DNA of 64,000 bases from Pseudoalteromonas rubra. GTDB lineage: Bacteria > Pseudomonadota > Gammaproteobacteria > Enterobacterales > Alteromonadaceae. The notes beneath the pieces are model-generated. The model was not told where the DNA came from and made no database searches. It saw only the letters and a list, made by a program, of their open reading frames with translations. Of the stretch, positions 36,909-42,309 are shown piece after piece; positions within the stretch are counted from its first letter, which is position 1; the number at the start of each line of letters is the position of its first letter. The stretch covers positions 186,001-250,000 of the forward strand of contig NZ_CP013612.1 in the NCBI RefSeq assembly GCF_001482385.1, given 5' to 3'. Made by a program: the position numbers and the translations under genes.

Positions 36909-37508
36909 TTAAGATGCGCGGGATGCCTGAGTACCACCCTCTCTTGCGGACAGGATCATCATGGTCAGCAGTGCGCCACAACATAGTGCCCAGGCTATAT
37001 AAATTAGTCCCTCAAAATTATCATAGATAAAGGTCCAGGATTTCATTTCAAAGTAAGACCAGGCGATATTTTCTAATAGCGCAAGCAAATAAATGAACGA
37101 AGTGTACATATAGAGCCAGTGGAAAACACCATCGAAGTGAGTGAGCTGTATGTTAGGTGAATTGGATAATTTCCTGGAAAGTTGCACTCTGAAAATCAAT
37201 ACTATTACGATTGCTAAACTAATTAATAACTGAATCCCATAGATCATTGTTCCTTGTAATAGTTTGTTTTCTGCAGGTGTCATGTAGTCAATTAGTCCGG
37301 TTTCAAATATGACAGGTGAAAGCGCCGTCAAAATAAAGATAAAACTGGATATATGAGTCATATTTATATCTTTTTTATAGTGACCATATACAATTCCTGC
37401 ACCTAAAAGAATCAAGTACAGCGGTGTTACAATTGTGGGATTCCACAATTGAATATAGAAAATTGCCATTGCAGCTATGCTAATTAAAATTAGGTTTGAG
37501 AGTTTCAT
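36909..37508 (-). CDS. Membrane protein of the xKPPR-repeat operon
   Basis: The 199-residue protein has about five or six hydrophobic segments (for example residues 4-20, 26-42, 52-70, 86-106, 130-148 and 170-188) and no catalytic motif I recognise. It starts three bases after the stop of the repeat-peptide gene, so the two are almost certainly co-translated. The link suggests it handles the repeat protein, for instance as an exporter, immunity protein or anchor, but no known transporter signature is visible. Its AT content is higher than that of flanking hut genes, as is the whole three-gene unit. Confidence 0.7.
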   Translation of the reverse strand: MKLSNLILISIAAMAIFYIQLWNPTIVTPLYLILLGAGIVYGHYKKDINMTHISSFIFILTALSPVIFETGLIDYMTPAENKLLQGTMIYGIQLLISLAIVIVLIFRVQLSRKLSNSPNIQLTHFDGVFHWLYMYTSFIYLLALLENIAWSYFEMKSWTFIYDNFEGLIYIAWALCCGALLTMMILSAREGGTQASRAS

Positions 37509-37511
37509 TTA

Positions 37512-38216
37512 CTATCCTTGAGAACTTTCTACCGGAATAATGGGATCTGAGTCGATGTGTATTCGAGCAACTCTAGGAGGTTTGTATGCTCCGCTTCCAC
37601 CATATATACAATTACACATTTTTAGAGTCAGCTCTTGGCTAGCAGTAGAGTTTTTAGGAAAGGTTGGGGCAGATAACTCTCTCGCTACTCTTGGTGGTTT
37701 GTAGCCTGTAGTGCCTCCGGATATATAAGTGCAAATATCAGTCTCTATTCTGTTTGAATTTAGGCTTATTTTTGAATGGTCAGGCTTGGAGTTATTAGAT
37801 GAAAAACTAGCAATTTTTTCTCTGGGTGGCTTATATCCTGTACTGCCAGATATTGAGCTGCATGTGCGCTTAGAAAGCTCATGTATATTTTCTGTTTTAA
37901 GCGAAGACACCTGATATATACCTGCTGTCATAGAGCGAGGTGGTTTCTTCGCTGTAGTTCCACCCATTACTCCCATACTTAAATCTTCAGAAAGAACTTG
38001 CACGGCATTAACCTCACAAGCTCCAGGCCTGACCGGCTTATAAGGCCCTTTAGCACTTGGTTTATCAGACCGGTAGAGTCCGCAACCCGCCACAAACTTC
38101 TTTTGCCCACCAAGTAAACTCTTATCATTACTCAGGTCTCGACTCATTTTACGGTCAGTAAGTTTTACCAGAGAAGCCAATTTAGTTAGAAGTGTGAGTG
38201 GGCGTATCTTTTTCAT
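37512..38216 (-). CDS. Repeat protein with four G-rich xKPPR motifs; possible multi-core peptide precursor
   Basis: The 234-residue protein has no recognised domain. Four copies of a short motif occur at residues 82-94 (GVMGGTTAKKPPR), 119-132 (CSSISGSTGYKPPR), 162-176 (CTYISGGTTGYKPPR) and 201-215 (CNCIYGGSGAYKPPR). A diverged copy (GPYKPVRPG) lies near 57-65. Repeat spacing is 38-44 residues. The basic N-terminus MKKIRPLTLLTKLASL with a later LLGG at 34-37 recalls leader peptides of ribosomally made, modified peptides, and each repeat has GG or GS before its KPPR core. No modifying enzyme is nearby. The gene overlaps the upstream HTH gene by ATGA and precedes a membrane protein by three bases. 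Confidence 0.7.
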   Translation of the reverse strand: MKKIRPLTLLTKLASLVKLTDRKMSRDLSNDKSLLGGQKKFVAGCGLYRSDKPSAKGPYKPVRPGACEVNAVQVLSEDLSMGVMGGTTAKKPPRSMTAGIYQVSSLKTENIHELSKRTCSSISGSTGYKPPREKIASFSSNNSKPDHSKISLNSNRIETDICTYISGGTTGYKPPRVARELSAPTFPKNSTASQELTLKMCNCIYGGSGAYKPPRVARIHIDSDPIIPVESSQG

Positions 38217-38512
38217 TTTTCGTCATCCTGTAACTTTGACGCATCATGGCGGTTTAAACTGCCACTAATTTGTCTGATTTCATTGAGTAAAGATCGCGTA
38301 TCTATTTTGCATAGCATCAGCCAGCGAAAAAGCTGCCTGGATTTTATGTCACTGACACCCTGCTCATAGTTACTGATTGTTTTACGGTCGCACTCTAACT
38401 TTTTGGCCATCAGCTCCTGGGATATGCCGGCGTTTTTCCTCATTGCCTTTAAATCATCGCCATCAATCACGTCCTTTTTTCCTTTTTTATTGTAATGCGG
38501 AGACTTTTCCAC
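38213..38512 (-). CDS. Xre-family HTH regulator heading the repeat-peptide operon
   Basis: The protein has 99 residues with a clear Cro/CI-type helix-turn-helix (LKAMRKNAGISQELMAKKLECDRKTISNYEQGVSDI) at about 20-56. The frame has no ATG at its beginning; GTG at 38512 is the best start and no strong ribosome site is visible, so initiation could be leaderless or begin at an internal Met. Its stop overlaps the repeat-protein start (ATGA), giving translational coupling. It likely regulates its own operon. A second, divergent Xre gene lies 309 bases away. Confidence 0.75.
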   Translation of the reverse strand: MEKSPHYNKKGKKDVIDGDDLKAMRKNAGISQELMAKKLECDRKTISNYEQGVSDIKSRQLFRWLMLCKIDTRSLLNEIRQISGSLNRHDASKLQDDEK

Positions 38513-38589
38513 ATTCGAACGAACATAATCTTAACAAGAAAGTCGCAATGTTAATACAAAAAGGGAACATGTCAAACTGACGCAAGTTA

Positions 38590-38821: not shown

Positions 38822-39115
38822 ATGAAAAATGATGCGTTTGCCAGGAAACAGCGGATTGATAAACTGATGAGGCGATTGCAACGCAACCTGCGGCAATTAA
38901 GGTATAAAAATAAGCTCTCTCAGGCGCAGCTGGCTGCCAAGCTGAATGTTGATCAATCCACCATCAGCAATTTTGAATCGGGCCGCTCAGTGATGACCAT
39001 AGAGCTGGTATATGAGTTATACATACTGTTTGGCGATGACTTTTCCTGCCCAGATATGCTGTTTGCACAAGCCAAACCCGCTGAAACAACTGAGACGGAG
39101 CGGCTTCAGGATTAG
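38822..39115 (+). CDS. Small Xre-family HTH protein
   Basis: The 97-residue protein consists mainly of a Cro/CI-type HTH (LRQLRYKNKLSQAQLAAKLNVDQSTISNFESGRSVMTIELVYELYILFGDD) at about 22-75 with a short charged tail. It could be a standalone repressor. It is divergent from the operon with another Xre protein and the repeat peptide. The two regulators may control each other, like a phage-style switch, although no phage genes are present. AAAAGGATTAGGCG precedes the ATG. Confidence 0.8.
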   Translation: MKNDAFARKQRIDKLMRRLQRNLRQLRYKNKLSQAQLAAKLNVDQSTISNFESGRSVMTIELVYELYILFGDDFSCPDMLFAQAKPAETTETERLQD

Positions 39116-39226: not shown

Positions 39227-40333
39227 TTACCCAGCTCTCGCACTTTGCCTTGCCTCTGGCCTTGTGTTTTTAGTGTGTGCTCGCCAAAGCTGATCAAGCT
39301 TAGCCGGAAGTGCGAGCAACGCCACAAAGCAGGCACATATCAACAGATCCCAGTACCAATGTGCAGTGGTGTATTCATGGCTCCACGGCAGCAGAAAGTA
39401 AATCACTACGCAGTGAAAGGAAAAAACGGGCAGGGCATGCTGGCCGATAAATACCGGATATCTGAGCGTAAAGAACCACCGAAAACGACGCATCAAATGC
39501 ATTACCAGATACACGCTCAATAGCAGGTTAAACTGATAGAGCAAAGAGGCGCTGCCGTGGCCAGCATAATAGGGCCGCATTAATTGTGGATAGCCATGCT
39601 TGAGCAGTAAAAAGAAGCCTATACCGCTCAATAGCAACACCCGTACCGCAGGTGTAAATGTAAAGGTATGGCTTTTATCAAACTTCAGATAACTCAGCAC
39701 AACCCCCATAAAAAAGTATATCTGCCAGGCGAATGGGTCAAAGTGACTTACGTTTAACTTGATGTCATTAAACACCAGACTAAATGGGCTTGTTAAAAAT
39801 TCTGCGGTGACAAACTGGGCCAGCAACCAGACTAAAAACGAAACTTTCACGACATACATCAGTTTACCTTGTTTGAGGGCCACAATAGCCAAAGGTAGAA
39901 ATACCATAGGCACTAAATAGAGGATCAGGATATCGTGAAAGCCCGGGTGCTCGAGTAGTAAGATGGCCGACAAGGCGCTATGTAATGGATTGCTAAACCA
40001 GTTAGCAGCATTGAAAAACCCCGACCAGTGCGTGATATATAAAGGAAGTGAAAGGACCAGCGAAAAGCAAACCAGGATGGCACTCAAATGAAATCCATAA
40101 ATCACCAGACAACGCCGCCACACTTTACGCCGCAACTCGGTGCGATTGTTTTCCAGCCGACCATATACCAGATAAGCAACAAACCCGGATAAAAACACAA
40201 ACCCCTCGGCCGCTGAGACAAATCCCAGCGGCGTGCGGGTAAATTGCGTGACAAAACTGCCAAACAAGTGGTTGCAGGCAATAACGATAAGCAGCCAGCC
40301 TCTGAGGCCATCATAGCTTAAATCTCGGCTCAT
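39227..40333 (-). CDS. OpgC-like membrane acyltransferase
   Basis: The 368-residue inner-membrane protein has about ten hydrophobic segments and the OpgC opening SYDGLRGWLLIVIACNHLFG with the FVSAAEGFVFLSGFVAYLVYGR block. OpgC proteins transfer succinyl or related groups to periplasmic glucans. Relatives in marine bacteria act on unknown glycans. No opgG/opgH genes are in view. AGGAGAGAAC precedes the ATG. The 660-base gap downstream toward the metalloprotease gene holds no gene that I can support. It ends in a long inverted-repeat element. Confidence 0.85.
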   Translation of the reverse strand: MSRDLSYDGLRGWLLIVIACNHLFGSFVTQFTRTPLGFVSAAEGFVFLSGFVAYLVYGRLENNRTELRRKVWRRCLVIYGFHLSAILVCFSLVLSLPLYITHWSGFFNAANWFSNPLHSALSAILLLEHPGFHDILILYLVPMVFLPLAIVALKQGKLMYVVKVSFLVWLLAQFVTAEFLTSPFSLVFNDIKLNVSHFDPFAWQIYFFMGVVLSYLKFDKSHTFTFTPAVRVLLLSGIGFFLLLKHGYPQLMRPYYAGHGSASLLYQFNLLLSVYLVMHLMRRFRWFFTLRYPVFIGQHALPVFSFHCVVIYFLLPWSHEYTTAHWYWDLLICACFVALLALPAKLDQLWRAHTKNTRPEARQSARAG

Positions 40334-40834: not shown

Positions 40835-40996
40835 ATACCAATTTGCTTAATTAAGTGATCTATTTTGAGGCGAGAAAATAGGGTCGATAACAAGGCGAAA
40901 ATTTTGCTATTTAGTTGTTCTAAATGAGAAATTTTTAACACTGTTAGCGTCCTATTTGCTCCTTCAAATAGACCAGGTATTAAGTGAAATTGGTAT
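40835..40996. repeat. 162-bp inverted-repeat (MITE-like) intergenic element
   Basis: Ends read ATACCAATTT...CTTAAT on the left and ATTAAG...AAATTGGTAT on the right, an imperfect terminal inverted repeat of about 17 bases. Inner arms GATCTATTTTGAGG and CTTCAAATAGACC also pair. The whole can fold into one long hairpin. Its right end runs into the stop codon of the metalloprotease gene. Similar elements, as far as I recall, are abundant in Pseudoalteromonas genomes. The preceding stretch 40334-40834 shows nothing recognisable. Confidence 0.7.
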
Positions 40997-42309
40997 TATA
41001 TCATCGCTATAGTTGAAACCAGCGCTGCAATATTCAAACAACGCTCAGGGCGTATCAGGTTTGTATGTGTTTGCTCCAGTTCATCAAGCTGATGGCAGCT
41101 GGCAACATCATTGCCCTGTAAGTTGATTGTTGAGTCGGAAGATAACTGATACAAGGCGTCAAGGTTAACGATCCGGTTATCACTCAAATCAATAAACGGT
41201 GATTCAACGACTGGCCATCCTACCGGAGTTGGTCTGACGATGGTTGAGTGTAAACCTGTGATGCCCTCGAGGCCATCAATAGAGCCAATATCAGATGCCG
41301 CACAACTGATACTCGTAATGCGATTGATATCGTACAAACTACTACCAGGCGTGTAGGGGTAAGTCTGTGAGATACACGCGCGTAAATTTGAATCACTGTA
41401 ATTCAGCGTGTGTACGTCTGGTGTCGCGTGAGCGGCGAAATTAGTACGAAAATCTCTTATCGTTCTGGCTGCATTCCCCAGCAGCGCATTACCACAAGGG
41501 CTGGCGGAGCCATTTTCGCCGCAGGCAACATCGACTACGTCCGGGTTGGAAAAAATACCCACAAAGGTTGTCGCGTTGCGTCGACTCCAGTATTGCAAGT
41601 AGTTCCCGACCATGATGGTACCATATTCACCATCATCACGTACTTCGTCTTCGGAAGAGTCTCCAACAGAAGCCAGGGAGACAATTCGTCCCCATCCTTT
41701 AGAGTATGAATGGTAACTCGAATTATGACTTGTGCTGCCCAGTGCTTCGGCAACCTGAATACCGTGAGATAAGCCGAAAACATGGCCAAGTTCGTGGGCA
41801 AATGTATCTGTGCTACAGTCGTAGTCAACGATGACGGTAGAATCCATAAAGTCCACCGCATTAATTTCATTCATATTTGTGCTGACTGTATTGGCGATTC
41901 CGCAGTAAGCTTGTCTGTCGTCACCTGTCAGGCCATTGTCTAATCTCGGGACTACGGCAATGGTATAATCGGCACCAATCTCATCGGCTCTGTTTTCAAG
42001 GTTATTAAAACCATTGATTTCACGTCTCATATTGTTAAATATGACGCTTTCATCTGAGTCAGCAGCCATATCGCTCATGACTGTCTCAGCTGAGTATAAC
42101 CTCATGGCAATGTTTGAGTCGGAGAGCATTGTATTGGTCTCAAGAATCCATCGTTCCAGTTCGTCCCGAATGGTTTCTTCTGAGCGCCAGCTGGTGATCA
42201 GCGCGTCATCTACGACAAAGCGGACACCCACCTCTACATTTGCCAAAACGCTTGTGGAGGCTAAGCAGAGTCCTGAAATAACTGAGTTTATTATACTTTT
42301 TTTCATCAT
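40996..42309 (-). CDS. Secreted metzincin protease with C-terminal leucine-rich repeats
   Basis: The 437-residue exported protein has a signal peptide (residues 1-23), a metallopeptidase domain with the zinc motif HELGHVFGLSH at residues 172-182, and a Met-turn-like GTIMVGN. The end, from about residue 320, has a short LRR array of the internalin/SDS22 kind (ITSISCAASDIGSIDGLEGITGL; FIDLSDNRIVNLDALYQL). The catalytic part is a reprolysin/pappalysin-like metzincin that should cut proteins outside the cell. No N-terminal inhibitory prodomain is present, but a coupled upstream gene may provide it (ATGA overlap at 42306). The inverted-repeat element adjoins its stop. Confidence 0.85.
   Translation of the reverse strand: MMKKSIINSVISGLCLASTSVLANVEVGVRFVVDDALITSWRSEETIRDELERWILETNTMLSDSNIAMRLYSAETVMSDMAADSDESVIFNNMRREINGFNNLENRADEIGADYTIAVVPRLDNGLTGDDRQAYCGIANTVSTNMNEINAVDFMDSTVIVDYDCSTDTFAHELGHVFGLSHGIQVAEALGSTSHNSSYHSYSKGWGRIVSLASVGDSSEDEVRDDGEYGTIMVGNYLQYWSRRNATTFVGIFSNPDVVDVACGENGSASPCGNALLGNAARTIRDFRTNFAAHATPDVHTLNYSDSNLRACISQTYPYTPGSSLYDINRITSISCAASDIGSIDGLEGITGLHSTIVRPTPVGWPVVESPFIDLSDNRIVNLDALYQLSSDSTINLQGNDVASCHQLDELEQTHTNLIRPERCLNIAALVSTIAMI

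Follow-up and report, generated by a model that had tools for sequence, protein, structure and literature searches.

Peptides with a double-glycine leader and the PCATs that handle them are already known, and signalling by such peptides is well studied in Gram-positive bacteria; to our knowledge, little of it has been shown in Gram-negative bacteria. RiPP precursors holding several cores are also familiar, the cyanobactins being one case. According to the accessible part of one account, the C39 peptidases of PCATs read leader positions -4, -7 and -12, with GG, GA or GS at the cut (PMC10885120). The nearest described logic to that of the locus presented here may be that of CylR1/CylR2 together with the cytolysin small subunit, as far as the available text of PMC3709268 describes it, the likeness being one of working principle and not of descent.

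In the window (the whole 64,000-nucleotide stretch of Pseudoalteromonas rubra DNA that was analysed), the list of open reading frames gives the minus-strand gene order Xre, 234-residue repeat protein, 199-residue membrane protein. We propose that this unit is a self-regulated secreted-peptide cassette, whose polyprotein a C39 transporter would cut and export in trans and whose peptides the membrane protein would sense together with the Xre regulator, a reading that we hold with evenly divided confidence. The features concerned are as follows:

36909..37508, minus strand, six-helix membrane protein of 199 residues, candidate peptide receptor or immunity partner
37512..38216, minus strand, putative pro-peptide of 234 residues, in which four KPPR units of leader and core are accompanied by a degenerate fifth
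37515..37519, minus strand, AAGGA within the C-terminal QG codons of the peptide, ribosome-binding site for the membrane-protein gene
38213..38470, minus strand, Xre1, a Cro/C1-type regulator of 85 residues with HTH_19 and HTH_3 matches (probable GTG start at 38468-38470)
38495..38514, minus strand, conserved 5' element ATGTGGAAAAGTCTCCGCAT ahead of Xre1, forming an imperfect inverted repeat
38822..39115, plus strand, Xre2, a second regulator of 97 residues, divergent from the Xre1-peptide-membrane unit

The tight coupling reported in the initial annotation was found again: the Xre stop and the ATG of the peptide gene overlap by 4 bases (ATGA), and 3 bases separate the peptide stop from the ATG of the membrane-protein gene. 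Two of its details on the gene layout had to be corrected. The Xre1 start, placed there at GTG 38512, is probably the GTG at 38470 (giving 85 residues), because relatives are conserved from V/M-I-x-GDDL, a start that sits behind an AGGA-type site; and the second Xre gene, said to face the unit, is in fact divergent, head to head with it. A relative of Xre2, found by pattern, is present in 22 of 39 loci, either divergent or downstream. In many relatives, too, the 5' element stands before Xre1 at this position, and its pattern ATGYGGAAAARTCTYC matches 38 of 152 loci; several of these overlap, being copies of a single place. An RNA hairpin, an operator and a short ORF (MWK...) that runs into the start of Xre are conceivable readings of the element. 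The idea that the conserved C-terminal SQG of the peptide is a functional tail was rejected; the best explanation is that the ribosome-binding site of the next gene is translated here, since CAAGGA upstream of the membrane gene is retained in loci whose peptide terminates in a different frame (L040, L041, L050 and L052). Two ordinary neighbours lie at window positions 39227-40333 (an OpgC-type membrane protein) and 40996-42309 (a reprolysin-like M12B metallopeptidase).

As first noted, the repeat protein carries four G[GS]x(2-4)KPPR motifs, which start at residues 85, 124, 167 and 206 (spacing 39, 43 and 39). Among 200,000 composition-preserving shuffles, 198,592 contained no KPPR, 1,407 contained one, a single shuffle contained two and none exceeded two. 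The protein divides into the following segments:

38118..38216, minus strand, N-terminal segment, residues 1-33, in which a Sec signal is not evident by eye
38058..38117, minus strand, unit 0, residues 34-53, core GLYRSDKP preceded by a degenerate leader with a GC pair
37935..37994, minus strand, unit 1, residues 75-94, LSEDLSMGVMGG-TTAKKPPR, with Ser at -7 and Leu at -8
37821..37877, minus strand, unit 2, residues 114-132, LSKRTCSSISGS-TGYKPPR
37689..37748, minus strand, unit 3, residues 157-176, IETDICTYISGG-TTGYKPPR
37572..37631, minus strand, unit 4, residues 196-215, LTLKMCNCIYGG-SGAYKPPR

Unit 0 was assigned by the position of LSGGQELLVTGC-GPYRPDKP in relatives, the motif script having registered it one residue off. 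Against the double-glycine leader pattern, units 2-4 fit with Cys at -7 and unit 0 fits poorly; several further units depart from the leader motif as well. The cysteine originally seen before most motifs does precede motifs 2-4, at -7 from the glycine pair, and is absent before motif 1. The suggestion of a RiPP-like leader at the N-terminus survives in altered form: leader-like sequence exists, but within the repeats themselves, as the two motif tests described below indicate, and comparison with relatives speaks against LLGG (residues 34-37) as the cut site, a fifth, degenerate unit apparently ending at G44-C45 instead.

No known domain covers the repeats, such a candidate being rejected after the protein gave no match in Pfam or NCBIfam at E <= 1 and none in PADLOC. 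The alternative of a repeat-display surface protein, also raised initially, has found no clear support: there is no Pfam or NCBIfam domain, the AF2 model is uninformative (pLDDT 41 from five sequences, with a sole helix at residues 9-17), and minimal relatives are of only 33-43 residues. In a search of 5.8 billion sequences at E <= 1, the protein matched itself and four others, all four labelled Pseudoalteromonas rubra, and a 74-residue single-motif paralogue in the source genome matched itself alone in the same kind of search.

A scan of named genomes with the membrane protein gave 38 loci, all from Pseudoalteromonas. In 35 of the 38 a peptide gene lies ahead of the membrane gene, and 31 have all three genes, for Xre, peptide and membrane protein; among the others, four have the peptide with no intact Xre detected (L042, L044, L046 and L047), L056 is an Xre-membrane fusion without a peptide, and L066 and L067 are membrane-gene fragments only. 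Across the genus the membrane family is present in 44 of 108 genomes, with up to 11 matches, fragments included, in one of them. In 23 complete cassettes the membrane protein has 195-201 residues and the peptide 74-234, the shortest peptides elsewhere having 33. Two clade-B cassettes show no Xre within a few hundred bases upstream; a clade-B cassette of the source genome (L073:7913-9343) comprises a 40-residue peptide, whose pair reads AAG, and a tandem of two membrane proteins, with no Xre seen and a solute-binding protein gene adjoining. A family of 118-146 residue proteins (core YIKHVF or YIKYYF) lies near cassettes, with 10 genes in 9 of 39 loci (L036, L039, L040, L041, L043, L045, L048, L049 and L054); its copy at L029:6881-7249 has no Pfam match at E <= 0.001.

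Neither of the outcomes that the initial annotation named as counter-evidence was obtained, since no known domain spans the repeats and these relatives keep the motif. Its number varies: P0002 is without the last unit of the window protein, L051 has two nearly identical units, and the script found between one and five units per peptide (none in L059). Judging from such sequences, unit number changes through gain and loss. We consider it highly probable that each repeat in the relatives consists of a double-glycine leader (hydrophobic residues or Cys at -12, -7 and -4, then a GG-like pair) and a short proline-containing core. Registration of the units relied on the glycine-like pair together with the basic proline core, residues further upstream being left unused. 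The test within the genus covered 36 peptides, of which all except L059 yielded units (66 in total, 64 of them unique); L044, L058, L063, L064 and L068 were excluded because they nearly duplicate others, and P0002 was also omitted. At least four spurious and several misregistered units were retained, a bias that works against the result. One of L, I, V, M, F or C stands at -12 in 55 of the 64 unique units, at -7 in 44 (Cys in 35) and at -4 in 55; position -5 follows with 34 (24 Leu) and -8 with 22, the remainder being lower. The sum over -12, -7 and -4 is 154; 10,000 shuffles averaged 71 and did not exceed 92. The frequent cysteine is that of leader position -7, and cysteine in the core is not conserved. 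Positions -12, -7 and -4 are those of the PCAT requirements given in the accessible part of PMC10885120.

The 33-residue form in L062 has the layout of classic double-glycine peptides. An alignment of 25 short forms, for which inner Met starts were chosen in clade-B peptides (as also in the model scans), gives a consensus sharing L, C/L, V/I, GG and P..P. In scans against NCBIfam and Pfam, some of the 25 match double-glycine models, namely EntF induction factor (three peptides, the best of which, at E 0.0011, scores 19.2 bits where the cut-off is 35), lactococcin G-alpha (two), and bacteriocin_sig, ComC and Bacteriocin_IIc (one each). Wherever bits were printed, the short relatives fall under the curated cut-off (TIGR01847 13.3/15.7, NF033383 12.3 and 19.2/35, PF10439 12.5/27.1), and four models of unrelated proteins (homoserine kinase, HMW1 and others) match similarly weakly, at E 0.022-0.23. 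Peptides collected later (for example L085, L091, L104, L105, L109 and L133-L152) stand outside both motif tests, some of L133-L152 being included in the alignment of short forms A5.

An early view, drawn from samples, that the family is confined to one genus proved wrong. With a broader profile (A4), 23 of 395 genomes sampled from the taxonomic family proved to have the membrane family, and ten of these belong to six other genera. Among 20 listed copies from four genomes of one such genus, Xre is present in 19 and a GG-type peptide upstream of the membrane gene in 17. Leaders there are canonical (LTTDELKNITGG and similar) and the core differs (SGGYKGVDP and similar), which argues that the tandem leader-core plan is independent of the KPPR sequence; one precursor (L187) holds five leader-core units at an exact 23-residue period. 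A second motif test took 21 peptides of that genus and a single one of a further genus, 22 in total, with L168 and L171 yielding no unit; it omitted L173-L177, L197, L202 and L203, where no such leader or no GG peptide was seen, L176 among them having GG pairs that are not anchored. In the resulting 32 unique units, a few of which are duplicates one residue off register, hydrophobic residues occupy -12, -7 and -4 in 28, 29 and 30 cases, a total of 87 out of 96 against a shuffle mean of 32 and maximum of 48.

The membrane protein is predicted by AlphaFold2 to form six long helices (pLDDT 82.9). A Foldseek comparison with the PDB gave 557 matches at E <= 10, none of them at E <= 0.001; the window copy has no Pfam match at E <= 1 and no PDB sequence match at E <= 10, and 21 relatives gave weak, scattered Pfam matches (best E 0.013), leaving the family with no credible match in Pfam, NCBIfam or PDB. 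A PADLOC match to KwaA (E 0.0095) was judged to be chance, and a mobile-element origin was rejected, the protein having no match in plasmid or phage collections. Of 66 proteins listed by its search, own entry included, 13 carry an HTH domain. Such fusions suggest that the N-terminus of the membrane protein is cytoplasmic and that the protein is tied to regulation. In L145 and L151, a peptide and a membrane protein are followed by three and four Xre-membrane fusions in a row. The sole match of Xre1 among PDB sequences at E <= 0.01 is the ICEBs1 Xre (7t8i, E 0.003), with no CylR2 structure found.

Over 162 pairs whose membrane proteins are 60-75% identical, median identity is 0.71 for Xre, 0.64 for the membrane protein and 0.32 for the peptide (over the shorter sequence). 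With four spurious units dropped, core distance follows the distance between membrane proteins once that between Xre proteins is accounted for (partial r 0.44, permutation p 0.0006, n 23) and does not follow Xre distance given the membrane protein (partial r -0.03, p 0.63, n 23). This co-divergence is what a peptide-binding partner predicts, be it a receptor or an immunity protein, and it is here that a bacteriocin cassette has to be weighed, in which the cores would be antibacterial, the six-helix protein immunity, Xre the regulator and the tandem Xre-membrane copies orphan immunity genes. Fast-varying peptides, a core that changes with its presumed immunity protein, the tandem arrays and the sub-threshold model matches would all suit it, as would the leader type, common in bacteriocins according to the available part of PMC10885120; most of this evidence is shared with a signalling role. 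Three arguments make us think it rather unlikely nonetheless: an HTH-membrane fusion would be more natural in a sensor than in a plain immunity protein, the conserved core is hydrophilic and short, with about 8 residues, and similar cores within one precursor would be redundant. The signalling role itself we regard as evenly poised between right and wrong, and the peptides may serve either signalling or competition between cells.

Turning to how the proposed secreted peptides would leave the cell, the initial annotation had offered the 199-residue protein as a possible exporter. The Xre-membrane fusions speak against such a role, as does the co-occurrence of the family with a C39 transporter encoded at a distance. 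All 44 genomes of the genus that have the membrane family also have a strong C39 match (E <= 1e-20), compared with 21 of the 64 that lack it (Fisher p 1.7e-14, a value that ignores phylogeny). The same holds for all five genomes of other genera whose GG peptides entered the motif test. C39 is absent or weak in G870 and G933, whose peptides are without such a leader, and in G890, where no peptide was seen; G911 has GG pairs (not anchored) and strong C39, and G918 (L174) is an exception, with strong C39 and a peptide in which no GG leader was seen. The leader is therefore not universal in the wider membrane family. The peptides of L174 and L175 have a G-rich GTRPK or GGKPK tail and a Q/S-rich body with SISIEA or VTISDEA, with no GG leader, and possibly take a different export route.

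The source genome has two C39 proteins, the stronger of them in a LanB-LanC-PCAT-HlyD cluster (L083:2139-10113; Lant_dehydr, LANC_like, C39-ABC and HlyD genes), beside which lies a gene that, by eye, we take to be glmU. A 49-residue GG peptide without Cys is encoded about 3.6 kb from this cluster (L083:13703-13852). In 21 PCAT loci (that of the source genome, 18 from others with the membrane family and 2 from genomes without it), an HlyD relative adjoins in all 21 and LanB and LanC in 15, which makes PCAT-HlyD the common part. The six loci without LanB/LanC are L115, on a short contig, L118, L122 and L124, with the membrane family, and L131 and L132, without it. Shared regulation of cassette and PCAT through the 5' element was rejected, its exact pattern not being found at the PCAT loci examined.

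The cluster in the source genome and the 15 loci with LanB/LanC relatives could point to a lanthipeptide or other modified RiPP, the cassette peptides being substrates of the enzymes beside the PCAT. We find this improbable: the genomes of L118, L122 and L124 have the membrane family and PCAT-HlyD without LanB/LanC alongside, the cores have no conserved Cys for thioether rings, and the Cys-rich GG peptides found beside PCAT in several relatives would suit LanBC better. Nor does a modified RiPP in the strict sense, as first envisaged, agree with the cassette surroundings, since no modifying-enzyme-like family was recognised, by eye and from ORF starts, among neighbours common to at least 4 of 41 loci (flanks of up to 5 kb, longer for L023 and L073), and no PCAT was seen among the same families. 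The part of that first reading which the data support is a precursor of several peptide cores, accompanied by a regulator and by a partner in the membrane, its repeats carrying their own double-glycine leaders. That the repeat protein is never exported and that its motifs bind and tune the membrane protein or Xre from the cytoplasm, as tight gene coupling and the lack of a visible exporter in the cassette might suggest, is likewise improbable, as it leaves unexplained both the export-protease motif in two sets and the C39 co-occurrence of 44 in 44.

For the self-regulated secreted-peptide cassette, we infer the following steps of cutting, export, binding and regulation: 1) the pro-peptide would be a string of leaders and cores, in which a PCAT and its HlyD partner encoded elsewhere would read -12, -7 and -4 and cut after each GG-like pair, releasing several short, basic, proline-rich peptides that start TTGYKPPR, TGYKPPR and so on; 2) the cognate six-helix membrane protein would bind the mature peptide; 3) the membrane protein would, as the Xre-membrane fusions suggest, pass the signal to the co-encoded Xre, which would control the cassette and perhaps other genes. 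More tentatively, and with somewhat less than even confidence, we suggest a family of Gram-negative peptide communication in which tandem leader-core polyproteins, every unit bearing an address of its own for the protease-transporter, give rise to many related short peptides, read by a six-helix receptor wired or fused to Xre, the several copies acting as parallel private channels. If true, this would be a signalling system spread over a genus and present in six more genera, and test objects are at hand in the 33-43 residue single-core forms, the five-unit tandem form, the candidate exporter and a candidate receptor per cassette. A precursor with its own leader for each core could also serve as a tool where a single gene is to yield several peptides.

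Searches of the literature (titles and abstract openings) found no precursor with a leader for each core accompanied by this Xre and six-helix family. Among known systems, a close likeness is to the double-glycine peptides exported by C39 PCATs, such as ComC, class II bacteriocins and EntF-type factors, which have the same leader (hydrophobic -4, -7 and -12 with a GG, GA or GS pair) and with which the cassettes also share short forms of 33-43 residues and a C39 protein in the same genome (44/44); here, however, the leader is repeated before cores in one polyprotein, Cys is usual at -7 in Pseudoalteromonas and a PCAT is not seen in the cassette. Microviridin, as described in the accessible part of PMC5934393, likewise has several cores per precursor, whereas here no modifying enzyme is seen linked and, unlike in multi-core RiPP precursors, each unit has its own double-glycine leader. 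CylR1/CylR2 of the Enterococcus faecalis cytolysin pair a small HTH regulator with a co-encoded membrane protein, as the present cassettes do, and go with a PCAT-exported peptide, as is proposed here, according to the available text of PMC3709268; that text predicts three helices for CylR1 rather than the six of the present family, in which, moreover, the peptide gene lies between the regulator and membrane genes and Xre-membrane fusions occur.
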